64,000 bases of DNA from Calditrichales bacterium MX18-03 (GTDB taxonomy: Bacteria; Bacillota; Clostridia; Lutisporales; Lutisporaceae): contig JAJGRE010000003.1 of NCBI GenBank assembly GCA_021083345.1, positions 310,001 through 374,000 of the forward strand, in the 5' to 3' direction. Each line of letters opens with the position of its first letter. Positions within the stretch are counted from its first letter, which is position 1. The position numbers and the translations under genes were made by a program. Shown in pieces: positions 9,019 through 55,227 of the stretch. The notes under the pieces were generated by a model. It saw nothing but the letters and a program-made list of their open reading frames with translations. It was not told the origin of the DNA and searched no databases.

Positions 9019-9027
9019 TATTCCATC

Positions 9028-9899: not shown

Positions 9900-9909
9900 T
9901 TTGAACCTC

Positions 9910-9980
9910 CTTATATCTTGTCATGTTATATCGAGCTGCGCTATATCTTGAGATGATTATATCACGTGATGATATATCAT
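9910..9980. promoter_or_regulatory. PadR operator region with repeated ATATC words
   Basis: The region contains TTATATCTTG, TTATATCGAG, CTATATCTTG and the palindrome ATCACGTGAT (9961-9970) with ATAT on both sides. Such repeats just upstream of a padR gene are typical of autoregulation. The divergent topB gene begins 90 bases to the right, so it could be affected too. Confidence 0.45.
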
Positions 9981-10067
9981 TTCAAGAGGTATTATAAAAT
10001 AATTCGTGTCATGAAAAGCATAAAATGGTAAACTATAAAAGCGAGAAAAAATTCAAGGAGTATGATT

Positions 10068-38243: not shown

Positions 38244-38387
38244 ATTTTATAACATTGTTAATTATTCGTCAATAGTTTTAGCAATATTTGGTTCAAATTT
38301 GACAAATCATTTTTGTCTTATATAATTAAGATGAGGATGAATTGAAACCAGATGACTGAATATAAAGATGATTTCAGGAGAGGGAAT

Positions 38388-38975
38388 ATGTCACAGAAAA
38401 GAATGACGAAAAGACAAATTCAGGCGCAGAATACCAAGGATAACATATACCGTACCGCCGTTGAATTGATGGAGAAAAAAGGACTTCAAAACATCACGGT
38501 AGAAGAGATTTGCAAAAAAGCCGGTGTGTCGGTAGGCTCCTTTTATAATTGCTTTAAATCCAAGAACGATATCCTTAACGAAGTATACAAGGTAGCAGAC
38601 GATTACTTCCTGAACGTGGTAGCGGACGCTCCCGATTTGAAAGAAGGAAATACCCGGGACAAGATCATCCGCTACTTTCATTACTATGCGGATTACAATA
38701 TTTGCCGGGGCATTGATTTTGTGATGCAATTGTATAATGTACAGAATACGCTGTTTATCATGAAAGGAAGGCACATGCAAACAATATTGCAGCGTATTGT
38801 AGAGGCCGGACAAAAAAACGGTGAGATTCGAACGGATATGACGGCTGAAGAAATCGTCAGATTCCTGTTTGTTTCTGTCAGAGGTGTCGTCTATGACTGG
38901 TGCCTTCATAACGGCCAGTATGATTTGGATGATGCAGTGGTGAGTCATGTAAAAAAACTGGTTATGGTCCTATGA
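38388..38975 (+). CDS. TetR-family transcriptional regulator
   Basis: A 195-residue TetR/AcrR regulator: N-terminal HTH at about 14-60 (IYRTAVELMEKKGLQNITVE, then KAGVSVGSFYNCFKSKNDIL) and a C-terminal ligand domain rich in aromatic residues (YFHYYADYNICRGIDFVMQL). ATG at 38388 has AGGAGAGGG before it; the ATG at 38352 has no ribosome site. It is divergent from the LysM flavoprotein gene, which it probably controls through the palindromes at 38162-38243. The ligand is unknown, perhaps the enoate substrate of the reductase. Confidence 0.85.
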   Translation: MSQKRMTKRQIQAQNTKDNIYRTAVELMEKKGLQNITVEEICKKAGVSVGSFYNCFKSKNDILNEVYKVADDYFLNVVADAPDLKEGNTRDKIIRYFHYYADYNICRGIDFVMQLYNVQNTLFIMKGRHMQTILQRIVEAGQKNGEIRTDMTAEEIVRFLFVSVRGVVYDWCLHNGQYDLDDAVVSHVKKLVMVL

Positions 38976-39012: not shown

Positions 39013-39861
39013 CTATTTACTCCATTTCGCTGCCTGTATTACATGCTTGGCAAGGACCGATGTCGTTACCGTGCCTACCCCACCCGGGACAGGCGTAATT
39101 CCGGCGGTCTTCTGCTCAACCTTGTCAAAATCCACATCGCCGCAGAGATTTCCGTTTTCATCCAGATTGATGCCCACATCAATGACGATCTGCCCTTCAG
39201 AAACAAAGGCATCCGTCACCATCTTAGCCTTGCCTGCAGCTGCAATGATTATATCTGCTTCCCGGCAGGTTTCCTCGATGTGATGGGTTTTTGTATGGCA
39301 AATGGTAACCGTTGCGTGCTTTTTCAAAAGCAGCATGGCTAAAGGCTTTCCGACCACCAAGCTCCGGCCGACCACCGCCACTTTTTTCCCCTTTACGTCT
39401 ACGTTATAATGCGCCAGCATTTCCATGACCGCCTCCGGGGTACAAGGTGCAAATCCCGTTTCATCACCTTCAAACACTTTTGCCACGTTGACCGGGTTCA
39501 GGCAATCCACATCCTTCTCGGGACTGATGACATACTTGATGACGTTTTCATCGATTTGCCCCGGCAGCGGCCTGAACAAGAGGATGCCATGTATGGAACC
39601 GTCCCCATTCAGCTTTCTTATCTCACCAACAAGCGCCTCCTGCGTGAGTATCTCCGGGTATTCAAATACCCTGCACCGGATCCCCAAGCCCTCGCACCTC
39701 TTAATGGCACCCTTCTCGTATGCAAGATCATCAGGCCTTGCCCCCAGCCTCACAATGGCAAGTACTGGGGTTATGCCTCCGGCGTTTAAAGTCTCAACTT
39801 CCTTCAGAAGCCTATCCTTCATGGCGCTAACCACTTCTGCGCCCTTCATTAATACTGCCAT
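39013..39861 (-). CDS. folD: Bifunctional methylene-THF dehydrogenase / methenyl-THF cyclohydrolase
   Basis: A 282-residue FolD. It has the substrate-site YEKGAIKRCEGLGI (with the catalytic Lys), the DGSIHGILLFRPLPGQID segment, KDVDCLNPVNV, the cofactor-site GRSLVVGKPLAMLLLKKHAT and TPVPGGVGTVTTSVL. The YxxxK arrangement supports both activities, so no separate cyclohydrolase (fchA) is required, and none is seen. In the pathway it converts methenyl- to methylene-THF. It is the last gene of the minus-strand block, 18 bases after fhs, with GGGAGG before the ATG and a strong terminator behind. Confidence 0.95.
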   Translation of the reverse strand: MAVLMKGAEVVSAMKDRLLKEVETLNAGGITPVLAIVRLGARPDDLAYEKGAIKRCEGLGIRCRVFEYPEILTQEALVGEIRKLNGDGSIHGILLFRPLPGQIDENVIKYVISPEKDVDCLNPVNVAKVFEGDETGFAPCTPEAVMEMLAHYNVDVKGKKVAVVGRSLVVGKPLAMLLLKKHATVTICHTKTHHIEETCREADIIIAAAGKAKMVTDAFVSEGQIVIDVGINLDENGNLCGDVDFDKVEQKTAGITPVPGGVGTVTTSVLAKHVIQAAKWSK

Positions 39862-39879: not shown

Positions 39880-41559
39880 TTAGAAAAGTCCGGAAATCCT
39901 GCCGGTGGAGTCCACGTCGATGCTCTCTGCCGATGGAACCTTTGGAAGTCCCGGCATGGTCATGATTTCACCTGTCAGTGCGACGATAAAGCCTGCTCCT
40001 GCAGATACCTTGACATTTCTTACCGCAACTCTGAAGCCTGCCGGACGCCCAAGCTTCTTTGGATCATCCGTCAGAGAGTACTGCGTCTTGGCCATGCAGA
40101 TGGGCAGATTGCCGAAGCCCAGTGCTTCCAACCGTTCTATTTCCTTCAATGCGGCCGGTGCAAAATCAACACCGTCGCCGCCATATATGCGGGATACGAT
40201 TGCTTCAATTTTCTCCTTGATGGATGCTTCTGCTTCATAAGAGAAGCTGAACTTGCTTCCGCCTTCTTCCACCAGCCTGACAACTTCTCTGGCCAGCCTT
40301 TCGCCGCCTTCTCCGCCCTTTGCCCACACCTCGGAAAGCGCCACATTGGCCCCGTATTCCTTGCACTTATCCTCAATCAGCTTCAGCTCGTTCTCGGTGT
40401 CTGTGGGGAAGCGGTTAATGGCAACGACTGCAGGCAGTCCGAACTTGGTAGTGATGTTCTCTATATGCTTCAGCAGGTTGGGAAGGCCTTTTTCCAGTAC
40501 TGTCAGGTTTTCCACACCCAGCTCTGCTTTGGCTGCACCACCGTGGTGCTTCAGCGCTCTGACGGTAGCAACGATAACCACAGCCGATGGCCTCAATCCG
40601 GCAATCCGGCACTTGATGTCGATGAATTTCTCTGCACCCAGATCCGCACCAAAACCGGCTTCCGTCACCACATAATCCGCCAGCTTAAGCGCCAGTCTTG
40701 TAGCCATGATGCTATTGCAGCCATGAGCTATATTGGCGAAGGGACCGCCATGGATAAAGGCAGGCGTATGCTCCAGGGTCTGAACCAGGTTGGGCTTCAG
40801 GGCGTCCTTCAAAAGTGCGGCCATAGCGCCTTCAGCCTTCAGCTGTCCTGCTGTGACTGGCTTGTCGTCGTATGTATAGCCTACTATGATATTTTTGAGC
40901 TTTTCCTTCAAATGATCCAGGTCCTTTGATAAGCATAGGATGGCCATCACTTCGGAGGCCACTGTGATGTCGAAGCCGTCTTCACGGGGTGTTCCATTGG
41001 CTTTGCCGCCCAAGCCGTCCGTTATAAACCGCAGCTGTCTGTCGTTCATATCCATGCATCTTTTCCAAGTGATCCTTCTGGGGTCAATACCCAGTTGATT
41101 GCCTTGATAGATGTGATTATCCAGCATGGCAGCCAGCAGGTTGTTTGCGGCACCGATTGCGTGCATATCGCCGGTAAAGTGAAGGTTGATGTCTTCCATG
41201 GGTACAACCTGGGCATAACCACCGCCTGCTGCACCGCCCTTAACACCGAATACCGGTCCCAGTGAGGGTTCCCTAAGTGCAATTATGGTATTTTTGCCGA
41301 TCTTCTGAAGCGCATCGCCCAAGCCCACTGTCGTGGTGGTCTTTCCTTCACCTGCGGGGGTTGGGTTGATGGCTGTTACAAGAATAAGTTTTCCGTCTTC
41401 CCTGTCTTTCATCGTATCCAACACGTTGTAATTGACCTTGGCTTTAAAATTCCCATAAAGCTCAAAATCCTTCTTTTCGATCCCCAGCTTCGCAGCCACC
41501 TCTTCAATAGGCATCATTTCAGAGCTCTGTGCAATTTCGATATCGCTTTTATACTGCAT
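39880..41559 (-). CDS. fhs: Formate--tetrahydrofolate ligase
   Basis: A 559-residue formyl-THF synthetase, which activates formate with ATP on tetrahydrofolate, the first folate step of acetogenesis. Features: N-terminal SDIEIAQ, the P-loop-like [36 protein letters not shown], the [18 protein letters not shown] segment, [20 protein letters not shown] and [16 protein letters not shown]. Length matches the family. GGAGGGG precedes the ATG. It sits between the Flx-like electron module and folD, in the same block as the methyl-branch genes. Confidence 0.96.
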
Positions 41560-41590: not shown

Positions 41591-42424
41591 CTAATACTCC
41601 CCGGGCATTTGCGACAGCTGCGCCATACTAAACACCGGCCCATCGATGCACACATACTGATGGCCTATATTGCACTTTCCGCATTTGCCCACGCCGCAGG
41701 TCATCCGCATTTCCAGCGTCGTCAGGATTTTTTCCTTTGGTATCCCAAGCTCAACCAGCTTGCCGGACACAAACTTGATCATGATGGGTGGCCCGCAAAG
41801 CACGGCATAGGTATTGGCCGTATCGATATCCATTTCCGAAACCAGGACATGGGGAAAACCAACCCGCTCATCCCAGCCTTCCTCCGGCCTGTCGATGGTA
41901 CAGGTAACACTGGTCCTGTCAATCTTCCGCCATTCCTCAAATTCCCTGCGGTATATGAAGTCCCCGGAACCTCTGGCAGCCAGCAGCATCTGGATATCGC
42001 CATACTTACTCCGATTCTGCTCATCGAACATATAGAGGAGCAGCGGTCTGAGCGGGGCTAGCCCCAGGCCTCCTGCGATGACGAGAATCTTGCTTCCCTC
42101 CATCTCCTTTACCGGAAAGGTGTTCCCGAAGGGTCCACGGATCCACACCTTGGACCCGGCCTTCAGGCTGTGAAGTGCCTCTGTCACAAGTCCGACCCGT
42201 TTGATGCTCAATTCGATGTATTCCTTGTTCAATGGCGAGGATGCAAAGCCAAAGGGTGCCTCTCCCACGCCGGGAATGGACAGCTCAACAAATTGCCCCG
42301 GCATGAAATCCATTTTCCCGCCGTCGGTAAACTTAAGCCGGTACGTCTTGATATCCAGGTCTGATGAGGTTTCCTGTATGACCTCCACCAGTTCGGCTTT
42401 CTGCGGCAAATACGGATTGCTCAC
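41591..42424 (-). CDS. FlxA/AsrB-like FAD/NAD(P)-binding oxidoreductase with 2Fe-2S site
   Basis: A 277-residue ferredoxin-reductase-type protein. The FAD domain contains MPGQFVELSIPG and the KRVGLVTEALHSL region, the NAD(P) domain GGLGLAPLRPLLLYM and CGPPIMIKF, and the C-terminus four Cys (TCGVGKCGKCNIG, then VCIDGPVF) as in PyrK/AsrB 2Fe-2S sites. The start is GTG at 42424: GTGA overlaps the TGA stop of the previous gene and GGAGGGG lies 6 bases upstream. By position it matches FlxA of FlxABCD-HdrABC complexes, the subunit that takes hydride from NADH. The NADH preference is inferred from the family. Confidence 0.8.
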   Translation of the reverse strand: MSNPYLPQKAELVEVIQETSSDLDIKTYRLKFTDGGKMDFMPGQFVELSIPGVGEAPFGFASSPLNKEYIELSIKRVGLVTEALHSLKAGSKVWIRGPFGNTFPVKEMEGSKILVIAGGLGLAPLRPLLLYMFDEQNRSKYGDIQMLLAARGSGDFIYRREFEEWRKIDRTSVTCTIDRPEEGWDERVGFPHVLVSEMDIDTANTYAVLCGPPIMIKFVSGKLVELGIPKEKILTTLEMRMTCGVGKCGKCNIGHQYVCIDGPVFSMAQLSQMPGEY

Positions 42425-43398
42425 TTTAACCCCTCCATTATTTCTGTCACGACAGATTTGATATTCATTCCCACAGGGCAGCTCCTGATGCAGCGTCCGC
42501 AGCCGGTACAAGCCGTATATCCGAAATTCTGCTTGACATACAGGTACTTGTGCAGGATCCGCTGCCGATACCTTTCCTTTTTGGAAGCCCTCGGGTTGTG
42601 ACCGGATGCATGCATGGTAAACTTGGGATACATGCAGCTGTCCCAGCATTTATACCGGATAGCTTCGCCCTTTTCCACCACATCCTTGAATACGAAGCAG
42701 TGGCAGGTGGGGCAAATATAGGTGCAGGTTCCGCAGCCCATGCATTTTTCTGAGATTCTGCCCCAGTCCACGTTGTTGAACAGTGTACTCTCATCGCTGT
42801 TGATTTCCAGCAGAGCCTGGCCTCCTGATTCGCACGAGACTGCTTTCTGGGAATCTATCTGCGCAAAGCCTCCAAAAAGCAGTTCACCCTTTTCGGTTAT
42901 GATTTGTACGATATACTGATCTCCATTATCCGTCAGAAATGCATCGCATGCTTCTGAATACCCCTTGTTCAAGCCCCTGTCTCCACAGAAGCAGCCCTTT
43001 TTCTCAGATTGGCAGCCAAAGCCTATCAGAACCGTGTTTTTTAATTTTTTCTCAAAATAGGTATCGATAAATTTGCCTTGAGTGAACACGGCCGTCATGA
43101 TTTTCAGCGCTTCCAGATCGCAGGACCTTACACCGAAAAGAATGGTTTTGGTGTCGTCTTCAGTTATCCTGATATCCCCATCCTTGCTGAAGACCATCAT
43201 CTGCTCCGTCTGAGGAAACAGGAACTCCTTGGGCGACTTATAGGCAGCCTCATCATTGAGTATAACCTCATCCACCTGGTTCACGGCTTTATAAACCAAT
43301 GTCTGACCTTCCCTGACCGGTGCAACGATCTTGTAATCCGTCATCAGGCTTTCCAGCAAGTCTTTGATGCTGTCCTTAGGAACCACAACATGCTTCAT
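42421..43398 (-). CDS. FlxB/AsrA-like protein with two 4Fe-4S clusters
   Basis: A 325-residue iron-sulfur protein of the AsrA/hydrogenase-beta type. The N-terminal half has GVRSCDLEALKIMTAVF and the C-terminal half a two-cluster ferredoxin arrangement (CMGCGTCTYICPTCHC, then CTGCGRCIRSCPVG). An extra Cys group, FGCQSEKKGCFCGDRG, lies in the middle. In Flx complexes such a subunit relays electrons between the flavin protein and the Hdr part. ATG at 43398 is 7 bases from GGAGGTGA. The gene overlaps the previous one by 23 bases and the next by 4, so the three are tightly coupled. Confidence 0.78.
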   Translation of the reverse strand: MKHVVVPKDSIKDLLESLMTDYKIVAPVREGQTLVYKAVNQVDEVILNDEAAYKSPKEFLFPQTEQMMVFSKDGDIRITEDDTKTILFGVRSCDLEALKIMTAVFTQGKFIDTYFEKKLKNTVLIGFGCQSEKKGCFCGDRGLNKGYSEACDAFLTDNGDQYIVQIITEKGELLFGGFAQIDSQKAVSCESGGQALLEINSDESTLFNNVDWGRISEKCMGCGTCTYICPTCHCFVFKDVVEKGEAIRYKCWDSCMYPKFTMHASGHNPRASKKERYRQRILHKYLYVKQNFGYTACTGCGRCIRSCPVGMNIKSVVTEIMEGLK

Positions 43399-44254
43399 TG
43401 TGCTCACCTCCTATGAAACCTACTTCCTTGTCGTTCATATCAAAAGTTGTCATAGCAGGTACTTCCTCCGGATTAACACCGGGCTGGTATCCGTAAAGCG
43501 CTTCACAGAATTCTGCCAGATCCTTCACCAGATACCGTATATTCACACCGGAAGGACACACCCTTTCACAGGCACCGCATTCTACGCACCTTCCAGCCAG
43601 GTGCATTGCCCTGCCGAGGTGAAAGACCATTTTTGCCCCGGTATCCAGCTCCTTCGGAAGCCAATTGGGTATTTCCCTGTCGATGAAGCAGCTCTCGCAA
43701 TAACACCCGTAACAGGCCTGCCTGCATGAAAAGCACAAAATGCACTTCTCCATTTCCTTCTGGAACCTGGTTAGCTTGCCGGACAACTCAGCTTCCATCG
43801 TATCGGCAGCCTTTTGAACCGCTTCAGCTTCCAATCCGTCTCCATACCCAACCAGAATATCATATACCGGCGGTATTCTCAATTTGCAATCCTCACAACC
43901 GGGAGCGGCCAACCCGTCCTTGCCCTTCATACCGGCGCATTCTACACCGATAATGGTCAGCTTATCCCGCTCAATCTGGTTCTCGGCCAGATACATGACA
44001 ATGGCTCTTGCATCGCAGGGCTTTGCGATAATTGCTGCGCCTTCCTTTTTCTCCAGTAAATACTTGGCAAGGGTCATGGAACAGGCATCATCCCACTTCA
44101 TTTCATCCGTTTCTTCCGGAGTCCTGATGAAGAAGGGCGAAGCGCTCATTTCTGCCTGGCCTTCTGCAAAGCCCAGTACCAGGTTGACTTTCCCCTCCTT
44201 CAGAAGGTTCTTGCATGTATCTATTAACTCTATTCTTTGCTTTTCAAAACTCAT
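43376..44254 (-). CDS. FlxC-like iron-sulfur protein
   Basis: A 292-residue protein. The N-terminal half carries AIIAKPCDARAIVMYLAENQ and IIGVECAGMKGKDG, wording shared with F420-dehydrogenase-beta/FrhB-like and Flx-type proteins. The centre is Cys-dense (CILCFSCRQACYGCYCESC), and a classic ferredoxin motif CVECGACERVCPSG follows near residue 240. The tail ends EACCGS. ATG at 44254 is 8 bases from AAGGAG; it overlaps mvhD by 11 bases and the FlxB-like gene by 23. It is probably a relay subunit between the NADH module and MvhD/HdrA. Exact naming is by position and motif only. Confidence 0.72.
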   Translation of the reverse strand: MSFEKQRIELIDTCKNLLKEGKVNLVLGFAEGQAEMSASPFFIRTPEETDEMKWDDACSMTLAKYLLEKKEGAAIIAKPCDARAIVMYLAENQIERDKLTIIGVECAGMKGKDGLAAPGCEDCKLRIPPVYDILVGYGDGLEAEAVQKAADTMEAELSGKLTRFQKEMEKCILCFSCRQACYGCYCESCFIDREIPNWLPKELDTGAKMVFHLGRAMHLAGRCVECGACERVCPSGVNIRYLVKDLAEFCEALYGYQPGVNPEEVPAMTTFDMNDKEVGFIGGEHNEACCGS

Positions 44255-44723
44255 GAACATCGCTCCTTCGCTCGGATCCTTCCCTAATCCTGTTGGGGCC
44301 AAGCGCCTTGACCTTGACCACGACTTCCTCCACCACAGAAGCAAAACGGTTGCCCTCGGATGCCGAGACCCAGGTGAAATGCACTCTTCCAGGCTCTATC
44401 CCTGCAGTCGTCAGCAGTCTTTTGAGCATCGTAAAGCGTCTTCTGGCATATAGATTGCCTGTAAGATAGTGGCAATCACCGGGATGACAGCCTGAAACCA
44501 TAATACCGTCAGCTCCGTCGACCAAAGCCTTGATGATGTATAGCGGATTTATCCTGCCGGAACACGGCAGCCTGACAATCCTGATGTTGGGCGGATACTG
44601 CAGTCTGCTGGTTCCTGCCAGGTCAGCACCTGCATAGCTGCACCAGTTGCAGAGAAAAGCCACGATCTTCGGCTCCCATCCTGCACCTGCTTCCCTTTTT
44701 TCAACCATCATTTCTTCCTTCAT
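44244..44723 (-). CDS. mvhD: MvhD/FlxD-type iron-sulfur coupling subunit
   Basis: A 159-residue protein of the MvhD family, which holds a 2Fe-2S cluster and links an electron-input module to HdrA. It shows the family string FLCNWCSYAGADLAG near residue 24, then LPCSGRINPLYIIKALVDGA, SGCHPGDCHYLTGN and YARRRF. AAGGAG is 8 bases before the ATG. It lies 12 bases after the hdrA fusion gene and overlaps the FlxC-like gene, as expected for a linker between the Flx and Hdr modules. Confidence 0.9.
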   Translation of the reverse strand: MKEEMMVEKREAGAGWEPKIVAFLCNWCSYAGADLAGTSRLQYPPNIRIVRLPCSGRINPLYIIKALVDGADGIMVSGCHPGDCHYLTGNLYARRRFTMLKRLLTTAGIEPGRVHFTWVSASEGNRFASVVEEVVVKVKALGPNRIREGSERRSDVHEF

Positions 44724-44735: not shown

Positions 44736-47700
44736 TTAACCTCTTAATAGATATTCCAGTTCGCTGACGACCTGCCTGTCAGCAAAGCCGTTTACGTCTA
44801 CTGCGCCGCATCTGCAGGTAGCGGAACAAGTTCCACAGCCCTTGCAAAGCACTGCGTTAATGACTGCCTTCTTCACGACCGCATCCCGCTTCTTGATTTC
44901 CTGTACGCTTACGGCTTTGTAGGCACAAACCTTCTCACATGCGCCGCAGCCTGCACATAAACCCTCATTCACCTGGGCAATGGTGCCTTCCGTCTCCAGC
45001 ATATCCTTTGAGATGACCGTTGCTGCCCTTGCTGCTGCTGCTTTGCCCTGCGTCATGCTCTCTCTCAGGTTTTTGGGTGCATGGGCCAATCCGCAGAGGT
45101 ACACGCCTTCCGTTGCAAAGTCAACAGGTCTGAGCTTGGCATGGGCCTCCAGGAAGAAGCCTTCCTGATTCAGCGGTACCTTGAGCATCTGGGCAATGAC
45201 CTTGTTGGCCTCGATTTCCGGCTCAATGGCGCTGCTCAGAACCAGCAGGTCAGCATCCAGATCGATTTCCTGATCCAATATGGGTTCATAAGCCTTGATC
45301 AGGAGCCTTCCGTTTTCCTCCAAAACCTGCGGCTTGCACTCCGGTGCGTAATGCACGAACTGCACGCCGGCTTTTCTGGCTTTTTGGTAATTCAACTCAT
45401 TTAAGCCATACGACCGGATATCCCTGTAAAAGATGTATACGTTCGCATCCTTGTTCCGCTCCTTCAGCTCCAAGGCGTTCTTGATGGCTTGATTGCAGCA
45501 TACTCTGCTGCAATAAGGCCTTTGCTGATCTCTTGAACCGACGCACTGGATCATGACGACATTCTTGACTGCTGCATCCGGCTTCCCTGACTTCAACAGC
45601 TCTTCAAGCTCCAGCTGTGTGATGACCGCCTTATGGGAGCCGTATTGGTATTCTTTGGGCTCATGGGCTTTTGCACCCGTTGCTACAACGACAACGCCAT
45701 GCTTGATTTCATTTTCCTCATCCCCTGTCCTGAGCACCGTTGCATACTTTCCGACATAACCGTCAATATGCTTCACTTCGGTATTCAGGTAGACATCTAT
45801 CAAAGGATTATTGGCTACCTCTTCGATATATTTCCGTATATAGTGATCATACGCTCTTCCGGTTGGCGAAGCATTCAGCTTCAGTGCATTTCCGCCCAAC
45901 CGCTCCGTCTTCTCTACCAAGTATGCCTTGAAGCCCATTCCGGCAATTTCCAATGCTGCAGAAATTCCCGCCATACCGCCGCCCAGGACCAAGGCTGCTT
46001 TTGTCACTTCAATCTTCTGCTTGGTCAGCTGACGGGCAAAGGTCACCTTTCCTACCGCCATCTTGACCAGGTCTTTGGCCTTTGCCGTGGCATCCTCATA
46101 GCGGTCCATATGGACCCAGGAGCACTGGTCCCTGATATTAGCCATGGCGAATAGGTAGGGGTTCAGGCCGGCTTTCACCAGCACCGACTGGAAAAGCGGT
46201 TCGTGGGTCCTGGGTGTACAGGAAGCCACCACAACCCGGTTCAACTGATGCTCCTTGATCTTCTCTGCGATAATCTTTTGGGCATCTACCGAGCAGGTAT
46301 AGAGGTTTTCCGTCGCATATTCCACAAATGGCAGTGTCCTGGCATATTCCACAACAGAGCTGACGCCCAGGTACCCGCCGATGTTGACACCGCAATGGCA
46401 CACAAACACACCGATCCTGATGGGCTCCTTGGAAACGTCCCGCATCTCTACCGCTTCGTTTTCACTGAAGAATGCACTATAATCCTTCAGTCTTACTTCT
46501 TCTGCATAGGCAATTTTGGATGCCTCCGATGCCGCAGCGCTGGCTTCAACCACTGTCTCGGGTATATCCTTGGGTCCCGCAGAAACACCGCAGGCTGCTA
46601 CGCCATCCCTTGAGGTTTTTGGCGGCGCCATTTCATTCACCCAGCAGAAGCCGTACCGGTCGGTCTTAATGCCTGTTTTGTCAAACAGCCTGCGGATTTC
46701 AAGCTTGGGGCTCAATCCCACAGACAGCACCACCATGTCATATTCACTTGTAGCGACCTTTCCGTCTTCCGCGCAGTGTTTTACCACCAGCATGCCGTTT
46801 TCCGGATTCTCAGCCACATCTGCGACACGGCTTTTAATAAAGCCGATATGGTATTTGTTCTTTGCAGAGTCGATATATTTGTCAAAGTCTTTGCCGTAAG
46901 CCCGCATATCCATATAGAAAATATCGATATCCTTGACCGTGGGCAAATGCTCCTTGGTAATCATAGCTTCCTTGACTGCATACATGCAGCAGACTGCAGA
47001 GCAGTATTCACTGTCGCATTTGGTATCCCTGGAGCCTACACACTGAATGAAGGCGATCCGCTTAGGCTCTTTGCCGTCGGAGGGTCTTTGGACATGTCCC
47101 TTGTATGGACCGGAGGCCGATAGGATCCGCTCGTATTCCATACTGGTAACGACATTTTTGAATCTGCCGTAGCCCAACTCCTGGGGAATATCCCTTGAGG
47201 TATCGTAGCCGTTGGCCATGATAACTGAGGAAACAGGGATCTCAACGATTTCATCCAGCTGCTCATGGCGAATGGCTTTGGACTGGCAGGTATGCTCGCA
47301 GGCTTTGCACTCGGAGCAGATGGAGCAATCCACACACCGCAGCGCTTCTGATTTTGCTTGTTCCTCTGTCAGACCCAGCTCGACCTCTTCAAAGCTGCCG
47401 GTCCGTTTATCCATTTCAATCAGGGGCATATTTGCCCTTGGCAGACGTACCAGACCTTCGAAGCTGATTTCTTCTATTGGTGTTTCGGGCAACAGGAAAG
47501 GTTCTACCGGCAGGTCGGTTCCTTCCAGATAGTTGCGGATACTTTTTGCAGCCTTATTCCCTGCGGCTATTGCGTCGATCATAGTGGCAGGTCCGCTGAC
47601 AGCATCGCCGCCTGCGAATATACCGGCTGCACCTGTCATCAGCTTTGTTCCGTCACATACAATGGTACCGTTCTTTTCAAAGGACAGGCCTTCTATTCCG

Positions 47701-49187
47701 CCAAACAGGCAATTGTCAACACGCTGTCCGATTGCCGGAATAATGGTGTCAGCTTCCATAACAAACGCTGAGCCGGGAATCTCTACAGGACTCCTGCGCC
47801 CACGCGCATCAGCAGGACCAAGGCTGTTCCTTACACATTTCAGCCCTGTAAGCTTGCCATTCTGAGACTGGATCTCAGCCGGTGCGGTCAGGTACTCAAA
47901 TCTGACGCCTTCTTCCATGGCGTGTTCAATTTCCCATGGGCTGGCGGGCATTTCCTGCTCCGATCTTCTATAGACGATGGTAACATCACAGCCAAGCCGG
48001 ACTGCAGACCTTGCTACGTCCATGGCTACGTTTCCGCCGCCTACCACCAGCACCTTCTTTCCGACAGCCGGCTTCCCGCCCAGATTCAGCTCCCGCAGGA
48101 ATTCAACACCAGGTACGACACCTGCGGCATCCTCCCCTGGAATGCCCAGTTTCATATCCTTATGAGTGCCTATGCCGAGGAAGAATGCATGATAGCCTTG
48201 TTCTCTAATATCTTCTATCGTCAAATCCCTGCCGATTTTTGTATTGCAGCGGATCTCAACGCCGAGGTCCTTCAAGATCTGGATCTCTCTGTCCAATATC
48301 GCCTTATCCAGCCGATAGCTGGGAATACCGACCCGCAGCATGCCGCCAGGCTCGGGAAGCGCTTCGAACACCGTCACAGGATATCCTGCAACCGCCAGCT
48401 GGTACGCACAATTGATCCCTGCCGGTCCCGAGCCCACAACGGCTACCTTATGCGGTTTGGGCTCCGCAGCGGTCTTGATCTCCGGTGCTTTTCCCTGTTG
48501 AATCTCATAGTCTGCTATAAAACGCTTCAATGATGCAATGGAGATTGAAGAATCCACATATTGCCTGCTGCATTTGGATTCACAAGGATGAAAGCATACT
48601 CTGCCCAGAACACCTGCAAAAGGTGTTACTTCCCTGACCAATGCCAAAGCTTCCTCATACCTGCCCTGGCCTGTCAAAGCAACATAACCATGTGCATTGA
48701 TATGAGCCGGGCATTTGTATTTGCAAGGTGATGTTCCCTTTTTATCGATGGTGACCTTGTTGGGAACCGCTTGCGCAAAGGGTTTATAAACCGCACTCCG
48801 CTTTCCGATTCCCATGTCGAACTCGCTTTGGACTTTGATTGGGCAGTTCAAGGTACAGTCGCTGCAGCCCTTGCACAGCTCTTCATCCACATAACGGGCT
48901 TTCTTTTTTACGACTGCCGTAAAATTCGGAGCGTCTCCTTTTAATTCGAGCAGCTCGCTCCAGGTCAGTGTCTTAATTAACGGATGGTTATAGCATGCCG
49001 TTACTTTCGGCGCCAGGATGCAGGCTGAGCAGTCATTGGTAGGAAAGGTCTTGTCAAGCTGTGCCATACGGCCGCCGATGCTTGGCGAGCTTTCAACAAT
49101 GAAAACCGGAATCCCCATTTCGGCCAGATCCAGTGAAGCCTGTATGCCGGCAATGCCGCCACCCAATACTAGTACAGGTTTTTTCAT
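44736..49187 (-). CDS. hdrA: HdrA-GltD-HdrA fusion (1483 residues), predicted multi-flavin bifurcation hub
   Basis: One frame joins three FAD modules. HdrA-1 starts at 1-120: VLGGGIAGIQASLDLAEMG, the HdrA-type CSACILAPKVTAC and a ferredoxin CKGCSDCTLNCP. A GltD-like block (about 150-560) is nested within it: Cys region CKYKCPAHIN and CFHPCESKC, then VAVVGSGPAGINC and VLVVGGGNVAMDVARSA. HdrA-1 resumes at about 615 (CSICSECKACEHTC, IAFIQCVGSRD, CDSEYCSAVCC, CHCGVNIGG). HdrA-2 begins near 1020 (ALVLGGGMAGISAALEIAG, IQCVGSRDQQRPYCSRVCC) and ends in two ferredoxin motifs from 1411. Ordinary HdrA is about 650 residues. GGAGG precedes the ATG. By context it accepts electrons from MvhD/Flx and serves HdrC and MetVF. 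Confidence 0.88.
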   Translation of the reverse strand: MKKPVLVLGGGIAGIQASLDLAEMGIPVFIVESSPSIGGRMAQLDKTFPTNDCSACILAPKVTACYNHPLIKTLTWSELLELKGDAPNFTAVVKKKARYVDEELCKGCSDCTLNCPIKVQSEFDMGIGKRSAVYKPFAQAVPNKVTIDKKGTSPCKYKCPAHINAHGYVALTGQGRYEEALALVREVTPFAGVLGRVCFHPCESKCSRQYVDSSISIASLKRFIADYEIQQGKAPEIKTAAEPKPHKVAVVGSGPAGINCAYQLAVAGYPVTVFEALPEPGGMLRVGIPSYRLDKAILDREIQILKDLGVEIRCNTKIGRDLTIEDIREQGYHAFFLGIGTHKDMKLGIPGEDAAGVVPGVEFLRELNLGGKPAVGKKVLVVGGGNVAMDVARSAVRLGCDVTIVYRRSEQEMPASPWEIEHAMEEGVRFEYLTAPAEIQSQNGKLTGLKCVRNSLGPADARGRRSPVEIPGSAFVMEADTIIPAIGQRVDNCLFGGIEGLSFEKNGTIVCDGTKLMTGAAGIFAGGDAVSGPATMIDAIAAGNKAAKSIRNYLEGTDLPVEPFLLPETPIEEISFEGLVRLPRANMPLIEMDKRTGSFEEVELGLTEEQAKSEALRCVDCSICSECKACEHTCQSKAIRHEQLDEIVEIPVSSVIMANGYDTSRDIPQELGYGRFKNVVTSMEYERILSASGPYKGHVQRPSDGKEPKRIAFIQCVGSRDTKCDSEYCSAVCCMYAVKEAMITKEHLPTVKDIDIFYMDMRAYGKDFDKYIDSAKNKYHIGFIKSRVADVAENPENGMLVVKHCAEDGKVATSEYDMVVLSVGLSPKLEIRRLFDKTGIKTDRYGFCWVNEMAPPKTSRDGVAACGVSAGPKDIPETVVEASAAASEASKIAYAEEVRLKDYSAFFSENEAVEMRDVSKEPIRIGVFVCHCGVNIGGYLGVSSVVEYARTLPFVEYATENLYTCSVDAQKIIAEKIKEHQLNRVVVASCTPRTHEPLFQSVLVKAGLNPYLFAMANIRDQCSWVHMDRYEDATAKAKDLVKMAVGKVTFARQLTKQKIEVTKAALVLGGGMAGISAALEIAGMGFKAYLVEKTERLGGNALKLNASPTGRAYDHYIRKYIEEVANNPLIDVYLNTEVKHIDGYVGKYATVLRTGDEENEIKHGVVVVATGAKAHEPKEYQYGSHKAVITQLELEELLKSGKPDAAVKNVVMIQCVGSRDQQRPYCSRVCCNQAIKNALELKERNKDANVYIFYRDIRSYGLNELNYQKARKAGVQFVHYAPECKPQVLEENGRLLIKAYEPILDQEIDLDADLLVLSSAIEPEIEANKVIAQMLKVPLNQEGFFLEAHAKLRPVDFATEGVYLCGLAHAPKNLRESMTQGKAAAARAATVISKDMLETEGTIAQVNEGLCAGCGACEKVCAYKAVSVQEIKKRDAVVKKAVINAVLCKGCGTCSATCRCGAVDVNGFADRQVVSELEYLLRG

Positions 49188-49210: not shown

Positions 49211-49615
49211 TTACCGCTTAGTAAGATTCTTGATCCTTTCGATCCGCTGCTGCCTTGTTTCAATGTCTATTTTTCCGACTTCTACCGCCAGTTCCTTTGT
49301 GACATAGCCCTCTTCCTCCGCCAATTGCCGCAGTACGCGCATGACATCTGCAAAACGTACATTCTGAGGGCAATGTGCTACACAGGTATGACACTGGTTG
49401 CACTGCCACAGTTCCGGAGAAGCCAGCACTTCTTCCTTCATGCCTAGAAGCACCATCCGCATGATCCGCCTGGGGTTGTAATCGGCGTTCAAGCTGCTGA
49501 CCGGACAGCCTGCGGTACAGGTTCCGCACATAAAGCAGTTTTTGACCTTTTCTCCGCCGGGTATTGACGCAACCTGGTTCTTGAAATCCAAATCCATCGT
49601 TTTCTTTTCACCCAT
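49211..49615 (-). CDS. hdrC: HdrC-type two-cluster ferredoxin subunit
   Basis: A 134-residue soluble protein with two 4Fe-4S motifs (CFMCGTCTAGCP at about 27-38 and CNQCHTCVAHCP at about 71-82), the layout and length of HdrC. The PRRIMRMVLLGMKEEVL stretch between them is typical. In Hdr complexes HdrC carries electrons from HdrA to HdrB. No HdrB (CCG-domain protein) is encoded in this window, so the acceptor here is probably MetVF, whose genes directly precede. It lies 24 bases ahead of the hdrA fusion gene. Confidence 0.9.
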   Translation of the reverse strand: MGEKKTMDLDFKNQVASIPGGEKVKNCFMCGTCTAGCPVSSLNADYNPRRIMRMVLLGMKEEVLASPELWQCNQCHTCVAHCPQNVRFADVMRVLRQLAEEEGYVTKELAVEVGKIDIETRQQRIERIKNLTKR

Positions 49616-49638: not shown

Positions 49639-50571
49639 TTAGACAACTACCTCATTCAGCTTGGGCCTGGGCAGGAATCCCGCTTTTTCCACGATGCTGG
49701 GCACGATGCTTTCCCAGCCCACAGCCATGATATGGATCCCGCTTACGCCTTCGATTTTTTTTATTTTTTCTATCAGTTCCAGAGCGATACTGACCCCTTC
49801 CTCCTCATAGGAGGCTGCCTTCCTCATCCGCTCCACCAGGTAGTCCGGCACCTGCATTCCTGCGACCTTTTTCGTCATTTCCAGAGATTTCAGCGATTTA
49901 TTCACCAATACCCCGGCCAGGAAATATGCCTTTTTATGTAGTCCGGCTGCCCTGACTTTCTCCATCCACCGGGCAAACTGTTCCACATCATAGATTGCCT
50001 GGGTCTGAATGAACTGGGCGCCTGCTTCGATTTTCTTATGCAGTCTGATCAATTGCAGCTCTTCAGGATGTGCAAAGGGATTTGCCGTAGCGCCGAGGAA
50101 GAATTCAGCAGGCAGCTTGCTAGGCTTGCCGCTCATGAAGACCTTGTCTTCCTTCATCTTCCTTAACCCTTGCAAAAGCTGTATGGAGTCGATATCATAA
50201 ACGTTTTTTGATTCCGGATGGTTTCCAAAGGTCTGATGATCCCCTGAGAGGCACAGAAGGTTTCGGATTCCCAGCGCATAAGCACCGAGAAGATCGCTCT
50301 GTATGGCGATACGGTTCCTGTCGCGGCAGGTCATCTGAAGAACCGGCTCAACACCTTCCTGGCTTGCCAGATAGCAAGCGGCAACACTGGACATCCTGAC
50401 GATGGCTGTCTGGTTGTCGGTAACATTGGCAGCATCAATATGGTCAAGCAGCTCCCGGGCGCTTTTCTTGACGATTTCGGCGTTGGCACTCATGGGAGGG
50501 CCGATTTCAGCGGTTACCGTAAAAAGCCCGGCTTCCAGCATTGTTTGCAATTTACTTTTTTCTATCGTCAT
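49639..50571 (-). CDS. metF: Methylenetetrahydrofolate reductase, catalytic subunit
   Basis: A 310-residue TIM-barrel flavoprotein that reduces methylene-THF to methyl-THF, the last methyl-branch step before transfer to the corrinoid protein. It shows TVTAEIGPPMSANAEIV, the DHIDAANVTDNQTAIVRMSS segment, MTCRDRNRIAIQSDLLGAYA, the substrate-site LCLSGDHQTFG and AQFIQTQAIYDVEQF. ATG at 50571 has GAGGT at 7 bases; an ATG at 50610 lies inside a palindrome and is not favoured. In acetogens of the Moorella/Eubacterium type MetF works with MetV and extra electron modules, as here. Confidence 0.93.
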   Translation of the reverse strand: MTIEKSKLQTMLEAGLFTVTAEIGPPMSANAEIVKKSARELLDHIDAANVTDNQTAIVRMSSVAACYLASQEGVEPVLQMTCRDRNRIAIQSDLLGAYALGIRNLLCLSGDHQTFGNHPESKNVYDIDSIQLLQGLRKMKEDKVFMSGKPSKLPAEFFLGATANPFAHPEELQLIRLHKKIEAGAQFIQTQAIYDVEQFARWMEKVRAAGLHKKAYFLAGVLVNKSLKSLEMTKKVAGMQVPDYLVERMRKAASYEEEGVSIALELIEKIKKIEGVSGIHIMAVGWESIVPSIVEKAGFLPRPKLNEVVV

Positions 50572-50600
50572 CGCTTTTACCTCTACTTCTTTCTTAAGGT

Positions 50601-50619
50601 GGATAACCATTGGTTATCC
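50601..50619. repeat. Palindrome between metV and metF
   Basis: GGATAACCA-T-TGGTTATCC, perfect 9-bp arms around one base, 29 bases before the metF start in a 101-base gap. In RNA the one-base loop would open to a small hairpin; as DNA it would fit a dimeric regulator. Role unknown. Confidence 0.7.
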
Positions 50620-50672: not shown

Positions 50673-51353
50673 TTAGATATCTGTATCCAAACGCATTTCC
50701 TTCTTTTCAACGCTTCTGGGTCCGCCATCCCTGCTGCTTCTCCAATCCTTGGGCTCTACGATTTCATAAAGCTTTTCCACCCGGTCCAGCTCTTTCAGCC
50801 TATCATAGATCAGCTGCCAGCCGCAGTCAACATTCGGGTCGATTTCGCATTTCCCATCCATTGACCCGCCGCAGGGACCGTTGAAATTGCTCTTGGAGCA
50901 CCTCGCTACCGGACAAACGCCGCCTGTCTTTTCAAGGATACAGGCACCGCAGCCCTGGCACATTTCAGTCCACACACCGATTTCGCGGGCAACACCGATA
51001 AACTTTGTGTTGATTCCCGGAAGCACCAGTTTCCCCCGGAACCGCTCCGCCATAAATTGGACACCGGCGCCGCAGCCCATGGAGAGGATAACATCTGCCC
51101 CGCCAAATTCCTCCGCCATATCATCCAGAAACTCCACATCACACTGCCGCTTGGGTGTTACAACCTTGACCTTTACCGGCACTGCCTGCTCTGCCCGGTT
51201 CAGTTCCAGGACCGATGCCAGTTTCAGTGCTTCTTTTTCACCGCCTGCCATACATACCGTCACACAAGTCCCGCAGGCTGCTATGACAATATTCTCAAAG
51301 CCTTCCAGAGATTTCGAGATCTCTTCCAATGGTTTTTGCTCAGCAACAATCAA
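50673..51353 (-). CDS. metV: MetV, methylene-THF reductase zinc/iron-sulfur partner subunit
   Basis: A 226-residue protein of the MetV (MTHFR C-terminal) family: AACGTCVTVCMAGGEKEA near the start, a central segment LSMGCGAGVQFMAERF, and a Cys-rich end with CQGCGACILEKTGGVCP, CSKSNFNGPCGG and the tail KCEIDPNVDCGWQLIYDRL. It forms the MetVF complex and gives MetF access to electron carriers. The start is a TTG at 51353 after GGGGGG. It is followed by metF after a 101-base gap that contains a palindrome. Confidence 0.92.
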   Translation of the reverse strand: MIVAEQKPLEEISKSLEGFENIVIAACGTCVTVCMAGGEKEALKLASVLELNRAEQAVPVKVKVVTPKRQCDVEFLDDMAEEFGGADVILSMGCGAGVQFMAERFRGKLVLPGINTKFIGVAREIGVWTEMCQGCGACILEKTGGVCPVARCSKSNFNGPCGGSMDGKCEIDPNVDCGWQLIYDRLKELDRVEKLYEIVEPKDWRSSRDGGPRSVEKKEMRLDTDI

Positions 51354-51366: not shown

Positions 51367-52734
51367 TTATCCCATCATTTCCAATATTTGATCCCTGAGT
51401 GCCATAGGCATGGCATGGGACAGCTTCATGCATTCCACCCGTTTTTCATCCAATCCCGATGCTGCAAGCAGCGCCTTTGTCTTTTCCACAAACCGCGCAG
51501 CCCTTTTGTTCCCTTCAAAATGCTTGCAGGCATCATCCATACAGGTAAGCACCAGGACTTTTCCATAGTGCTTCAGATCTGCTGTAATCGTCTCGACGCT
51601 TATTTCACCGCCGCATGACACCGGAACCGTCTCTATCCTTTCAAACAAGCCTGCCAGCTCATGCTTCAGCATCTGAGCCGCCGCTTTGCCGGAATTCTCA
51701 CAGCACAATATCTTTAAAGCATTGGGCGCCTTCACCCCGTCCACCGGCTTTTCAGCCTTCATTTTCACGGCATCTGCCGGGCAGACGGATACGCAGATTC
51801 CGCAAGTCTGACATCCATTCCCGAGGTTCTTCATAACGGAATTCTCATAATCGGGTGCCATCGCAGAATGGGGACAGGCTCTAAAGCAGGTATAGCAAAA
51901 TGCGCATTTCCCTGCATCTATTTCAATGCCTTTTGCCTCTTTTCCAGCTGCTGCATCAGCCAATCCATGTCCCGTTCGTTCCTTCATTTCCGAAATCGTA
52001 AAAGCTATCCTGTCCTGCAGCTCTGTCTCAGCCGTTATGGTACTTGAATGAATAAAATAGATACCGTTCCGGCTGGTCAAGGTGGGGAACAAAAAGCTTC
52101 TGTCATCATTGACTGAACTGTCTTCATTGCATTTTAGCCGCAAGAGCCTGGCTATTCTATCCATTTTCTCTGATGCCGTACTGCTTTCCGGCTTTATAAC
52201 TGCTGTGGACTCCAGTTTGAGGGCATCATAACCGTCATCCGCCATGATGCGGTATAGGCCTGTTTCTGTATCGCACGCTATTTCCAGGCTCAAGTATTTG
52301 ATAAAGGTTACGCCTGCATTTCTGGCTTCCTTATAAAGATTTTCCGTTTGATAGCCTGCCGTTCTCATAAACCTTGAGAGGTAGAACACCTGCTTTCTGC
52401 GTCTTGCCAGCTTGATGGCATTTTCCAGCGCATCCACCGTATAGTGAGCCGGGGATTCAGAAGGATAATCCAAAATAAATACAACCGGTTCATTGCCCAC
52501 CGTCACACGATAATGATTGCTGAAAGGCTTTTCACATACCGGCTCTTCCGTTACAATCACATGGCCCACCTTCACGGTTTGACCTGTTGTACGCACGATA
52601 TAATCCAGCCGTTCACCGCTGAAGCCGGTGATATCCTCCAGGCATTCGACCCGACAGGGCGTGAAGCCCTCCTCAGACAGCTTTTTTTCCAGGAGATCGT
52701 TCACCTGACTTTTCCCTAAAATTGCAACATTCAT
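51367..52734 (-). CDS. Ferredoxin - MvhD-like fusion protein (455 residues)
   Basis: The N-terminal half (1-260) has no clear catalytic motif but resembles the C-terminal part of HdrA-like proteins (RKQVFYLSRFMRTAGYQTEN, YKEARNAGVTFIKYLSLEIA). Two 4Fe-4S motifs follow near 275-325 (CAFCYTCFRACPHSAM, CQTCGICVSVCPADAV), then an MvhD-like domain (LKILCCENSGKAAAQML, PVSCGGEISVETI, LTCMDDACKHFEGNKRA). With the short HdrA-like protein before it, it looks like an HdrA split in two and joined to MvhD. GGGAGG precedes the ATG at 52734, 11 bases after the previous stop. Function unknown; a second electron branch for this pathway is my inference. Confidence 0.7.
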   Translation of the reverse strand: MNVAILGKSQVNDLLEKKLSEEGFTPCRVECLEDITGFSGERLDYIVRTTGQTVKVGHVIVTEEPVCEKPFSNHYRVTVGNEPVVFILDYPSESPAHYTVDALENAIKLARRRKQVFYLSRFMRTAGYQTENLYKEARNAGVTFIKYLSLEIACDTETGLYRIMADDGYDALKLESTAVIKPESSTASEKMDRIARLLRLKCNEDSSVNDDRSFLFPTLTSRNGIYFIHSSTITAETELQDRIAFTISEMKERTGHGLADAAAGKEAKGIEIDAGKCAFCYTCFRACPHSAMAPDYENSVMKNLGNGCQTCGICVSVCPADAVKMKAEKPVDGVKAPNALKILCCENSGKAAAQMLKHELAGLFERIETVPVSCGGEISVETITADLKHYGKVLVLTCMDDACKHFEGNKRAARFVEKTKALLAASGLDEKRVECMKLSHAMPMALRDQILEMMG

Positions 52735-52745: not shown

Positions 52746-53744
52746 CTAAATTTCAGCCAGCAACTGCCGGGCCGTGGTAAGCGCCTCTGCCCGCACCTCT
52801 TCGATCCTTTTGGGTCCGGAAGCGCAGCCAGCGAGATAAATGCCTGCTGTTTTGCCATCCTTTACAGGCTTTAGGAATCCGTTTTCGTCAATGCCGAGCA
52901 TGCATAGCTCTGCAAGCCTGTCATTATCGGCTGCCGGATGGATTCCCTCCGATAGGACGATCAAGTCAAAAGCCCGCTCGGTGACCCCTCCTGCTCCCGG
53001 TTTTTCAAAGGCTACCTTTGCCGGTTTGCCCGGAATGATCTTCACCGGTCTGCACCGAACGAATTCGATATTGTCTTTTTGAAGCGTGTCAAAATAGCTG
53101 CCTGCTTCCACCCGCTGCAAATCCATATAAAAGAAGGTGATGTCCGCTGACGGATAGTACTGCCTCAATACCTTTGCCGCTCGGGTCGAATAACCGCAGC
53201 AGACCCTGGAACAGTATGGCGCCTTTTCGTGGATATCCCGCGAACCATGGCATTGAATGAATGCAATGCTGGATGGTGCCTCAGGCAGTATTCCCGCTTT
53301 GTCTCTTCCTGCAAGAAGCTCTTCCAACCGGTATCCGCTGATGATTCCCGCTTGTACCGGATGCTCGACGCTGCCCGAAGATACCGATGAAAATGTATCA
53401 AATCCGGTGGTTACGATAATAGATTCGAAGCCTGCCAAAGTCGACCTGCCGACCTGACCGTCCACTAACACCCGGAAATTCCCTTTGGCTCCCATTACAT
53501 CCTTTAATGTGGAGCCGGTCATTATGCTGATCCCAGGATGTTGTTCCACTTTATCCCACAGACCTGCAGCAAGGCATACGCCGCAGTTGTTGCAGCGGTC
53601 TGTTGCTTTGCAGCCATAGGCTCTGACCTTACCGCCGATCCGTTCCGAGCTTTCCAGAAGCGTGACCTGCACACCGCTGTTTGCGAGCTCCATTGCGGCC
53701 GTACAGCCGGCAACACCACCGCCGATGATTAAAATATGACTCAT
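52746..53744 (-). CDS. Short HdrA-like FAD protein
   Basis: A 332-residue flavoprotein that keeps the FAD-binding start (ILIIGGGVAGCTAAMELANS), an HdrA-type Cys segment altered to CKATDRCNNCGVC, and the second HdrA motif IAFIQCHGSRD with APYCSRVCCGYSTRAA and YMDLQRVEAGSYF. The end (IYLAGCASGPKRIEEVRAEA) matches the FAD-closing segment. It lacks the ferredoxin domains, which appear in the next gene. AGGTGAT lies before the ATG. The 160 bases upstream contain a palindrome and break the tight gene spacing of the block, so a new transcript may start here. Confidence 0.75.
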   Translation of the reverse strand: MSHILIIGGGVAGCTAAMELANSGVQVTLLESSERIGGKVRAYGCKATDRCNNCGVCLAAGLWDKVEQHPGISIMTGSTLKDVMGAKGNFRVLVDGQVGRSTLAGFESIIVTTGFDTFSSVSSGSVEHPVQAGIISGYRLEELLAGRDKAGILPEAPSSIAFIQCHGSRDIHEKAPYCSRVCCGYSTRAAKVLRQYYPSADITFFYMDLQRVEAGSYFDTLQKDNIEFVRCRPVKIIPGKPAKVAFEKPGAGGVTERAFDLIVLSEGIHPAADNDRLAELCMLGIDENGFLKPVKDGKTAGIYLAGCASGPKRIEEVRAEALTTARQLLAEI

Positions 53745-53904: not shown

Positions 53905-55227
53905 TTATCCCAACGGCAGCGCAGCACAGGCTTTACTGAGCCTTTCGATGGTACTGCAGTCCATCATCAGACAATGCTCCCTGAAGTTTTCCGTACCTGT
54001 GATTCCCTGCCATTCGGCCTCAGGAACGGGATTCAGCCAAATGATCCGCTTCACTCTGGCAGCAAGCAGCTTCAAACTCTGGGCTGCTTTATCGCTGTTC
54101 AAGGTTTTGGCATCGCTGACCATGATGACAACAGTAGAAGCATTCAAAACTGTGCGACTTTCATACAGCAGATGCTCCACAGCTTTGCATATATCCGTTC
54201 CCCTCCGCCAGACCTTGCTCTGTTTCACTGTTCGTTCAAATTCCATTGCATTGACGAAGCCCTGCATGTTGAGGTGTTCGACGGCTTCAGAAAATAGGTA
54301 GCTTTCTGCCGCAGCCGTATTCTGGTGCATTCCCGTGGTGAATTGAAGCACAAAGCCGGAAAAGCGGTACATGGACGCCGACACGTCGCAAAGTACGAGC
54401 AGTTTCTGCCTATGCCGCGGTTTTTGCCTGTACTTGAGCCTGAACTGGATCCCTCCTGTTGTCAGATTAGACCTCAGCGTCTTCTTGAAATCTAGACGAG
54501 CCTTCTTTTTTGATGTCTTGTACCGCCGCAGCATATTTTTCCTTAAAGTTTCGGCAAACTGTTTTATAAGCCTTATGACATTAGGCAGGTCTTCACTCCT
54601 GAGGTCGCCTATGTTTTTATACATGAGGTCATTTTCCTGCTGTCTTACTTCTGCCACTTCCCTTGCAATCAATCCGGCTTCGGATAAAACGGTTTCCATC
54701 ATACCCTGCTTTGCTGCCGCAGACCCGGCAAACGTGGTTTTGAGCTTGCTCAGCCTGCTGTGCACCATGGCTTCCGCAATGGACTTAAAAGCCGGCCCCA
54801 CATTCTTCCCGGCTGAGGTTTTCGCCAAAAAGCTCAGGATACTCTGCTTCAGATCCTCAGGCAGTGCAGTATAGATCTCTTTCAGATCGTCCCGGATTTC
54901 CAGCTGCATTTCTTGAAACCGAAGTTCAGCGGCGTTTTCCGCGATTTCATGCTTTTTCTGCGCCAGCTGCTCCCGTTTTGATGCTGCCCAATGGGATCTT
55001 TCTTCTGGGTCAATAAAGAACCGATCGAAGACTGTCTGAAACAGCTTTCTTTCTTCATCACTCTTTGCCAGGCACGCCGACAATGCCGCTCTGACCTCTG
55101 CCCTGCTCAAGACATTGATATGCTGAAGCGCCTTTACGGCATCCATGGATTCCGAAAGGCTTGCCCTGACCCCCGCAAGCCTCAGGACCTCAATAAACTC
55201 AACGATGTTTTTCAGAAAAGAATTCAT
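53905..55227 (-). CDS. CoxE-like VWA-domain protein
   Basis: A 440-residue protein. The N-terminal 270 residues are helical and charged (EVRAALSACLAKSDEERKLF; RRYKTSKKKARLDFKKTLRS). The C-terminal von Willebrand A domain has the MIDAS start LLVLCDVSASMYRF and VVIMVSDAKTLNSD with the metal-site residues. This is the CoxE family, the partner of CoxD-type MoxR ATPases that mature metal sites (for example in Mo-CO dehydrogenases). The start is uncertain: ATG at 55227, or an ATG at 55239 that directly abuts AAAGG. Either way it overlaps the ATPase gene by about 30 bases or more, so the two are coupled. Confidence 0.82.
   Translation of the reverse strand: MNSFLKNIVEFIEVLRLAGVRASLSESMDAVKALQHINVLSRAEVRAALSACLAKSDEERKLFQTVFDRFFIDPEERSHWAASKREQLAQKKHEIAENAAELRFQEMQLEIRDDLKEIYTALPEDLKQSILSFLAKTSAGKNVGPAFKSIAEAMVHSRLSKLKTTFAGSAAAKQGMMETVLSEAGLIAREVAEVRQQENDLMYKNIGDLRSEDLPNVIRLIKQFAETLRKNMLRRYKTSKKKARLDFKKTLRSNLTTGGIQFRLKYRQKPRHRQKLLVLCDVSASMYRFSGFVLQFTTGMHQNTAAAESYLFSEAVEHLNMQGFVNAMEFERTVKQSKVWRRGTDICKAVEHLLYESRTVLNASTVVIMVSDAKTLNSDKAAQSLKLLAARVKRIIWLNPVPEAEWQGITGTENFREHCLMMDCSTIERLSKACAALPLG

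Follow-up and report, generated by a model that had tools for sequence, protein, structure and literature searches.

A fused HdrA–GltD–HdrA protein and its possible place in an HdrB-free, Flx-associated methylenetetrahydrofolate reductase

Within a stretch of 64,000 nucleotides from Calditrichales bacterium MX18-03 (positions 310,001 to 374,000 of contig JAJGRE010000003.1; this whole stretch is what we call the window), the minus strand encodes, at 44736..49187, a protein of 1483 amino acids in which an HdrA, a GltD-like module nested within it and a second HdrA are fused into one chain (HdrL, or Moorella-type HdrA, as identified by reading of the open reading frame, ORF, and by domain searches). 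It seems rather probable, from the sequence and its gene neighbourhood, that this chain is the flavin hub of the MetVF methylenetetrahydrofolate reductase (MTHFR) in an acetogen-type Wood–Ljungdahl cluster, as part of a variant of type IV MTHFR that would dispense with HdrB, draw on NADH through Flx proteins and pass electrons from HdrA to HdrC and on to MetVF. We are led to this reading because the length of the chain, its domain order and its Glu/Lys pairs match those of the published Moorella HdrA; because metV and metF precede its gene and mvhD-flxCBA follow it immediately, with tight spacing; because no CCG domain, as found in HdrB, is present in this genome or in three relatives with the same cluster, and the presence of Flx coincides with the absence of HdrB; because the tail of HdrC is shortened in loci that lack HdrB; because a related protein, at locus L154, keeps the cluster and the Fe–S cysteines of GltD without its NAD(P) subdomain; and because Rnf, encoded in the genome, could use reduced ferredoxin.

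Absence of HdrB and the proposed electron route

The whole 4.69-Mb genome gave no match to PF02754, the family of the CCG domains of HdrB, in a search whose control was positive in 12 of 14 genomes, and no CCG domain was found in the three relatives that carry the same cluster (G022, G027 and G067). In other genomes of the group, CCG proteins lie only outside the cluster. An HdrB hidden elsewhere in the genome was thus rejected at the domain level; in T. phaeum, hdrBC do lie outside the metVF-hdrA cluster (PMC6895022). HdrB, which belongs to type IV MTHFR and to FlxABCD-HdrABC alike, is therefore missing here for both, while other marks of type IV MTHFR are present: metV and metF share their cluster with hdrA and mvhD, and HdrC is there too, with a shortened tail.

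When the comparison is confined to fusions of full length that have MetF in the vicinity and no less than 3 kb of sequence to either side, hdrB is absent from all 11 MetVF loci with FlxA/B directly downstream, the window included, and present in 38 of the 43 MetVF loci without Flx (Fisher p=5e-8, uncorrected for common descent or for the choice of loci). A quick tree groups the window with L009, L010, L011, L012 and L019 at full support, and requires five changes of the Flx/MetVF label. HdrC varies as well: after its second Fe–S motif it has 51-62 residues in the window clade and 70-77 in other HdrB-less loci, as against 99-114 in the 30 HdrB-containing loci examined, all of which have the long tail. 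The stretch missing from the short HdrC is a good candidate for its contact with HdrB.

We may then picture the route as follows. NADH would be oxidised at FlxA, and its electrons would travel through FlxB and FlxC to the [2Fe-2S] cluster of FlxD/MvhD, and from there to the C-terminal ferredoxin and the FAD of the second HdrA half (HdrA-2). A higher-potential branch would leave through HdrC directly for MetV and MetF, without HdrB, where methylene-tetrahydrofolate (methylene-THF) would be reduced to methyl-THF; a lower-potential branch would leave through the first half (HdrA-1) and the ferredoxin/GltD clusters for ferredoxin or NADP(H). A pair of proteins encoded upstream, mini-HdrA and AcD, might act as a further HdrA-like relay at some point of the route. 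Bifurcation by this complex is plausible but unproven.

Two complementary HdrA halves and a nested GltD module

The ORF runs from ATG to stop with no internal stop or frame break, as a sequence-only reading of this DNA had claimed, the strand (minus) being absent from that account. Matches in Pfam, NCBIfam and PDB likewise confirm the order that it had proposed. The chain begins with the first part of the TrxR/FAD domain of HdrA-1 (residues 1-100, 48888..49187, placed by alignment), which includes Cys56; there follows a GltD/NfnB-like module (GltD/Fer4_20/Pyr_redox_2; residues 149-557, 47517..48743) with two Fe–S motifs, an FAD Rossmann motif at residue 252, an NAD(P) Rossmann motif at 383 and a YRR pocket, and then the second part of an inserted ferredoxin (C618-C634) with the rest of HdrA-1 (from about residue 645 to 905), carrying E686 and K739 (46473..47336). 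HdrA-2 occupies residues 922-1483, with an N-terminal Fe–S cluster domain (922-1055, 46023..46424, by alignment), a TrxR/FAD domain without inserted ferredoxin (1060-1400, 44988..46010), carrying E1195 and K1236, and, at its end, a ferredoxin domain with two [4Fe-4S] motifs (1405-1460, 44808..44975); all these parts lie on the minus strand. An AlphaFold2 model of residues 1-905 (pLDDT 86.4, pTM 0.79) was matched by Foldseek to the whole-length HdrA fold with the insert gapped out (8rwn, TM 0.94, 428-residue target), as well as to the NfnB/GltD fold (5jca_L, TM 0.80) and to StnC-type proteins.

Could a frameshift or an assembly join have made two genes look like one, as the sequence-only reading had itself envisaged? 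The unusual length of the chain, and nothing else, speaks for such an artefact, while 75 independent ORFs of 1340-1660 amino acids share the same architecture and align along the chain, and the half that contains GltD folds well in AlphaFold2. We therefore rejected this explanation, to which we grant virtually no probability.

That the chain ends in a second complete HdrA, as had been proposed, turned out to be wrong. HdrA-1 starts at the TrxR Rossmann fold and has neither the N-terminal cluster domain nor the C-terminal ferredoxin, and its Cys56 corresponds, in alignment numbering, to Cys197 of M. thermolithotrophicus HdrA, a residue that ligates the N-terminal cluster of the partner (PMC9012536). 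HdrA-2 displays the reverse: the cysteines of its N-terminal cluster (C930, C932, C965 and C990) are conserved in 76 of 76 aligned sequences, but no cysteine is found between residues 1022 and 1215, and it therefore has neither the inserted ferredoxin nor an equivalent of Cys197. This complementary loss of domains marks the chain, as judged from its sequence, as one covalently joined, intramolecular HdrA pseudo-dimer, and points to a single pseudo-dimer with shared exits rather than to two independent bifurcators. Chadwick et al. saw the Moorella protein in the same manner, as a fusion of two HdrA whose losses complement each other (PMC9012536). What stands of the earlier interpretation, namely two coupled flavin-based events in a chain with its own nucleotide site, is that the Glu/Lys pair regarded in the literature as the signature of bifurcation is present in both HdrA flavin sites (E686/K739 and E1195/K1236) and that the GltD motifs for FAD and NAD(P) are there. 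Two coupled bifurcation events may yet take place; the novelty of the fusion and its two complete HdrA do not stand.

In HdrA-1 the GltD module interrupts the inserted ferredoxin, falling between the first (C105-C115) and the second (C618-C634) cysteine motif of that domain, and both the FAD and the NAD(P) Rossmann motifs of the module are intact. Its pocket is of the YRR type known from NfnB and from the GltD-like domain with which StnC binds NADPH, whereas the Moorella-type references have CLE. When GltD residues 383-408 are set against those of relatives, both pocket types occur in the fused HdrA family, which suggests NADP(H) and NAD(H) subtypes; since the HdrA of M. thermoacetica oxidises NADH (PMC8760232; PMC9430772), a preference for NADP(H) is our prediction for the window site. 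A strict rule linking the YRR pocket to Flx operons was tried and rejected, as several operons with HdrB have YRR as well. The in-chain NAD(P)H site that the sequence-only reading had proposed is thus retained in its motifs, but it is unlikely to be the chief entry of NADH into this system, given the Flx-type module encoded downstream and the fate of the site in L154. There, within the same HdrB-less cluster, an HdrA of 1325 amino acids in one open frame (6986-10960, plus strand) has lost by in-frame deletion the equivalent of window residues ~348-534, that is, the NAD(P)-binding subdomain of GltD, while it retains the GltD Fe–S cysteines C155, C159, C198, C202 and C206. Because that subdomain is lost and the clusters are kept, an exit to ferredoxin would be favoured in L154.

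Kinship with known systems

The sequence-only reading had named earlier description and wide distribution of the fusion as what would refute it; both were found, and a triple flavoprotein never seen before had to be rejected. Such fusions were named HdrL in 2009 by Strittmatter et al., in Desulfobacterium autotrophicum (PMC2702500), and Kremp et al. described exactly the same domain order in the HdrA of M. thermoacetica (162.8 kDa), for which three FAD sites and one NAD(P)H site were predicted (PMC9430772). Among archaeal HdrA, Lyu et al. recognise a tandem form (type II) and a GltD-inserted form (type III) (PMC12054007); together with HdrA3/4 and HdrA9-11 (PMC9012536) these are separate classes in methane-metabolising archaea, and the window chain, like that of Moorella, combines the tandem feature of the one with the GltD-in-ferredoxin feature of the other. 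In a scan of genome contigs at least 586 relatives were confirmed, and of the best 80 the majority match the query over nearly its entire length. They come, by the names in their records, from Bacillota, Spirochaetota, Synergistota, Thermodesulfobacteriota, Chloroflexota, Acidobacteriota, Latescibacterota, Verrucomicrobiota, Planctomycetota, Thermoplasmatota and others, so that the search for the same domain order in other genomes, which had been recommended, gave full-length relatives in about ten phyla. Of 399 genomes sampled from the phylum, 68 have a match at E<=1e-200, which in many cases is full length. Within the window's family, by contrast, only its own genome, of 22 searched, has the fusion, so that inheritance within the family was set aside in favour of either a horizontal gain here or losses elsewhere. 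The fusion itself is a further member of a known family, and it is the HdrB-free, Flx-fed MetVF cluster that appears, within the literature searched, to be an undescribed variant of type IV MTHFR.

The closest parallel is HdrABC-MvhD-MetVF, the type IV MTHFR of M. thermoacetica (PMC9430772, PMC8760232). As its reference we used L150 and L151, from two genomes of one family, on the grounds of ORF length (exactly 1487 amino acids) and of residue positions, E696, K750, E1204 and K1246 falling at the published Moorella sites. The window chain is 44% identical to that of L151 over its full length, and the two types share a GltD inside HdrA-1, an HdrA-2 without inserted ferredoxin, Glu/Lys in both halves and metV, metF and mvhD adjoining hdrA. 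The Moorella-type operon (hdrC-hdrB-hdrA-mvhD-metV-metF) differs by its long HdrC tail, its CLE pocket and the lack of Flx genes; in the window HdrB is missing, HdrC is short, the pocket is YRR, and FlxCBA and the mini-HdrA/AcD pair are added. In the FlxABCD-HdrABC system, which Ramos and colleagues are said to have described in 2015 in Desulfovibrio vulgaris (as cited in PMC9430772), a flavin/Fe–S NADH module and an MvhD-like FlxD reportedly stand beside hdrA. Classical FlxABCD-HdrABC includes HdrB and lacks MetVF, while the window's Flx genes would work with an HdrA that contains GltD, among the genes of a folate reductase. HdrA and HdrC without HdrB are also found, as hydB-hdrAC, in the NPL-UPA2 metagenome-assembled genome Unc8, where HydB was proposed by the authors to replace HdrB (PMC6305446); the HydB family corresponds to FlxB in the window, but the linkage in Unc8 is to etfAB and not to metVF, mvhD or flx.

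In D. autotrophicum, HdrL1, which adjoins dsrABC, is a selenoprotein, and so is HdrL3 (PMC2702500); the window has a cysteine, Cys56. An in-frame TGA was observed at the position of Cys56 in fused HdrA genes of the Desulfobacterales type (L053, L054, L055, L057, L058, L062, L067, L077, L034, L048 and L051). It likely stands for selenocysteine, which would extend the known seleno-HdrL.

Rival readings and the surrounding cluster

Several points weigh against the route that we propose. The second acceptor of the Moorella complex was never found (PMC9430772) and with the Hdr-type MTHFR of S. ovata neither NAD(P)+ nor ferredoxin was seen to be co-reduced, so that bifurcation, unproven even for Moorella, may be absent altogether. 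The association between Flx and HdrB ignores common descent and was counted over loci picked by their likeness to the query, and the Flx genes were named by their likeness, at the level of families, to subunits of sulfhydrogenase, AsrAB and FdhB. It is doubtful, yet worth keeping in mind, that the complex does not bifurcate and that NADH, through Flx, merely reduces methylene-THF via HdrA, the Glu/Lys pairs being relics. That reaction is exergonic, the S. ovata result fits it, and the HdrA-2 pair is lost or changed in some members, each residue being kept in about 80% of the sequences (K in 62 of 76, E in 61 of 76). Relics would hardly account for the HdrA-1 pair, nearly invariant (E686 in 76 of 76, K739 in 75 of 76), nor for the near-invariance of the cysteines of the inserted-ferredoxin and GltD clusters.

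We hold it unlikely that the complex works exactly as in Moorella, with NADH oxidised at the in-chain GltD, electrons passing by the HdrA flavins to HdrC and MetVF, and Flx present for another purpose or partner. The published oxidation of NADH by M. thermoacetica HdrA (PMC9430772; PMC8760232) and the intact FAD and NAD(P) motifs of the window GltD would agree with it, but the pocket is of the YRR kind, the Flx genes belong to the same tight cluster, and the sister operon L154 dispenses with the NAD(P) subdomain. As a tentative further step, one might see here a separate HdrB-free type of MTHFR with two ports, FlxA for NADH and GltD for NADP(H), in which HdrC would feed MetV directly and the reduction of methylene-THF by NADH would be coupled to that of NADP+ or ferredoxin; if this were true, the folate reductase would double as a transhydrogenase.

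The cluster reads miniHdrA, AcD, metV, metF, hdrC, hdrA, mvhD/flxD, flxC, flxB, flxA, fhs, folD, all on the minus strand, with short gaps or overlapping genes, from which we infer co-transcription. Mini-HdrA (52746..53744) is a TrxR/FAD domain of 332 amino acids with Arg at the K409 equivalent, and AcD (51367..52734) joins a degenerate C-terminal half of HdrA to a two-[4Fe-4S] ferredoxin and an MvhD/FlpD domain; its structure model is poor (pLDDT 68, pTM 0.36) and supports, at low confidence, just the degenerate HdrA fold and the MvhD domain. The pair, which precedes metVF in HdrB-less loci, presumably recalls QmoA/QmoB. Then come MetV (50673..51353; methylene-THF reductase C-terminal family DUF5981, PF12225, 2.3e-37), MetF (49639..50610; PF02219, 1.9e-42) and the HdrC-like protein (49211..49615; 134 amino acids, 52 of them after the second Fe–S motif). 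Beyond hdrA lie MvhD/FlxD with its FlpD domain (44244..44723; PF02662, 2.2e-54), a FlxC-like Fe–S protein related to the Fe–S part of FdhB (43376..44260; listed ORF from 44344), a FlxB-like Fe–S protein of the sulfhydrogenase beta/AsrA family (42421..43407), a FlxA-like FAD/NAD(P) reductase of the HydG/AsrB family (41591..42421; listed ORF from 42649), the formate–THF ligase Fhs (39880..41559) and the methylene-THF dehydrogenase/cyclohydrolase FolD (39013..39861).

Upstream of the cluster are AAA/VWA genes and acs genes; a VWA_CoxE and AAA ATPase pair (53905-56086), between an acsE-like gene and the hdr/met cluster, is perhaps a maturation or insertion factor for a metal enzyme. At 36149-38131 a protein with LysM, FMN-binding and FAD_binding_2 domains resembles a secreted fumarate reductase and stands beside a TetR-like gene (38352-38975). 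Genome G000 has ten FeFe-hydrogenase-type matches, and at C8:614768-617815 a frame of 1031 amino acids sets an FeFe hydrogenase beside a GltD-type match.

The interest of these findings lies in the energy conservation of Hdr-type MTHFRs, among which the Moorella enzyme has never revealed its second acceptor. One lineage has lost HdrB and shortened HdrC, and a single operon of that lineage has also given up the NAD(P) subdomain of GltD. Such natural deletion experiments show what the route of the electrons requires, and point to complexes on which the coupling between NADH, NADP+ and ferredoxin could be tested.

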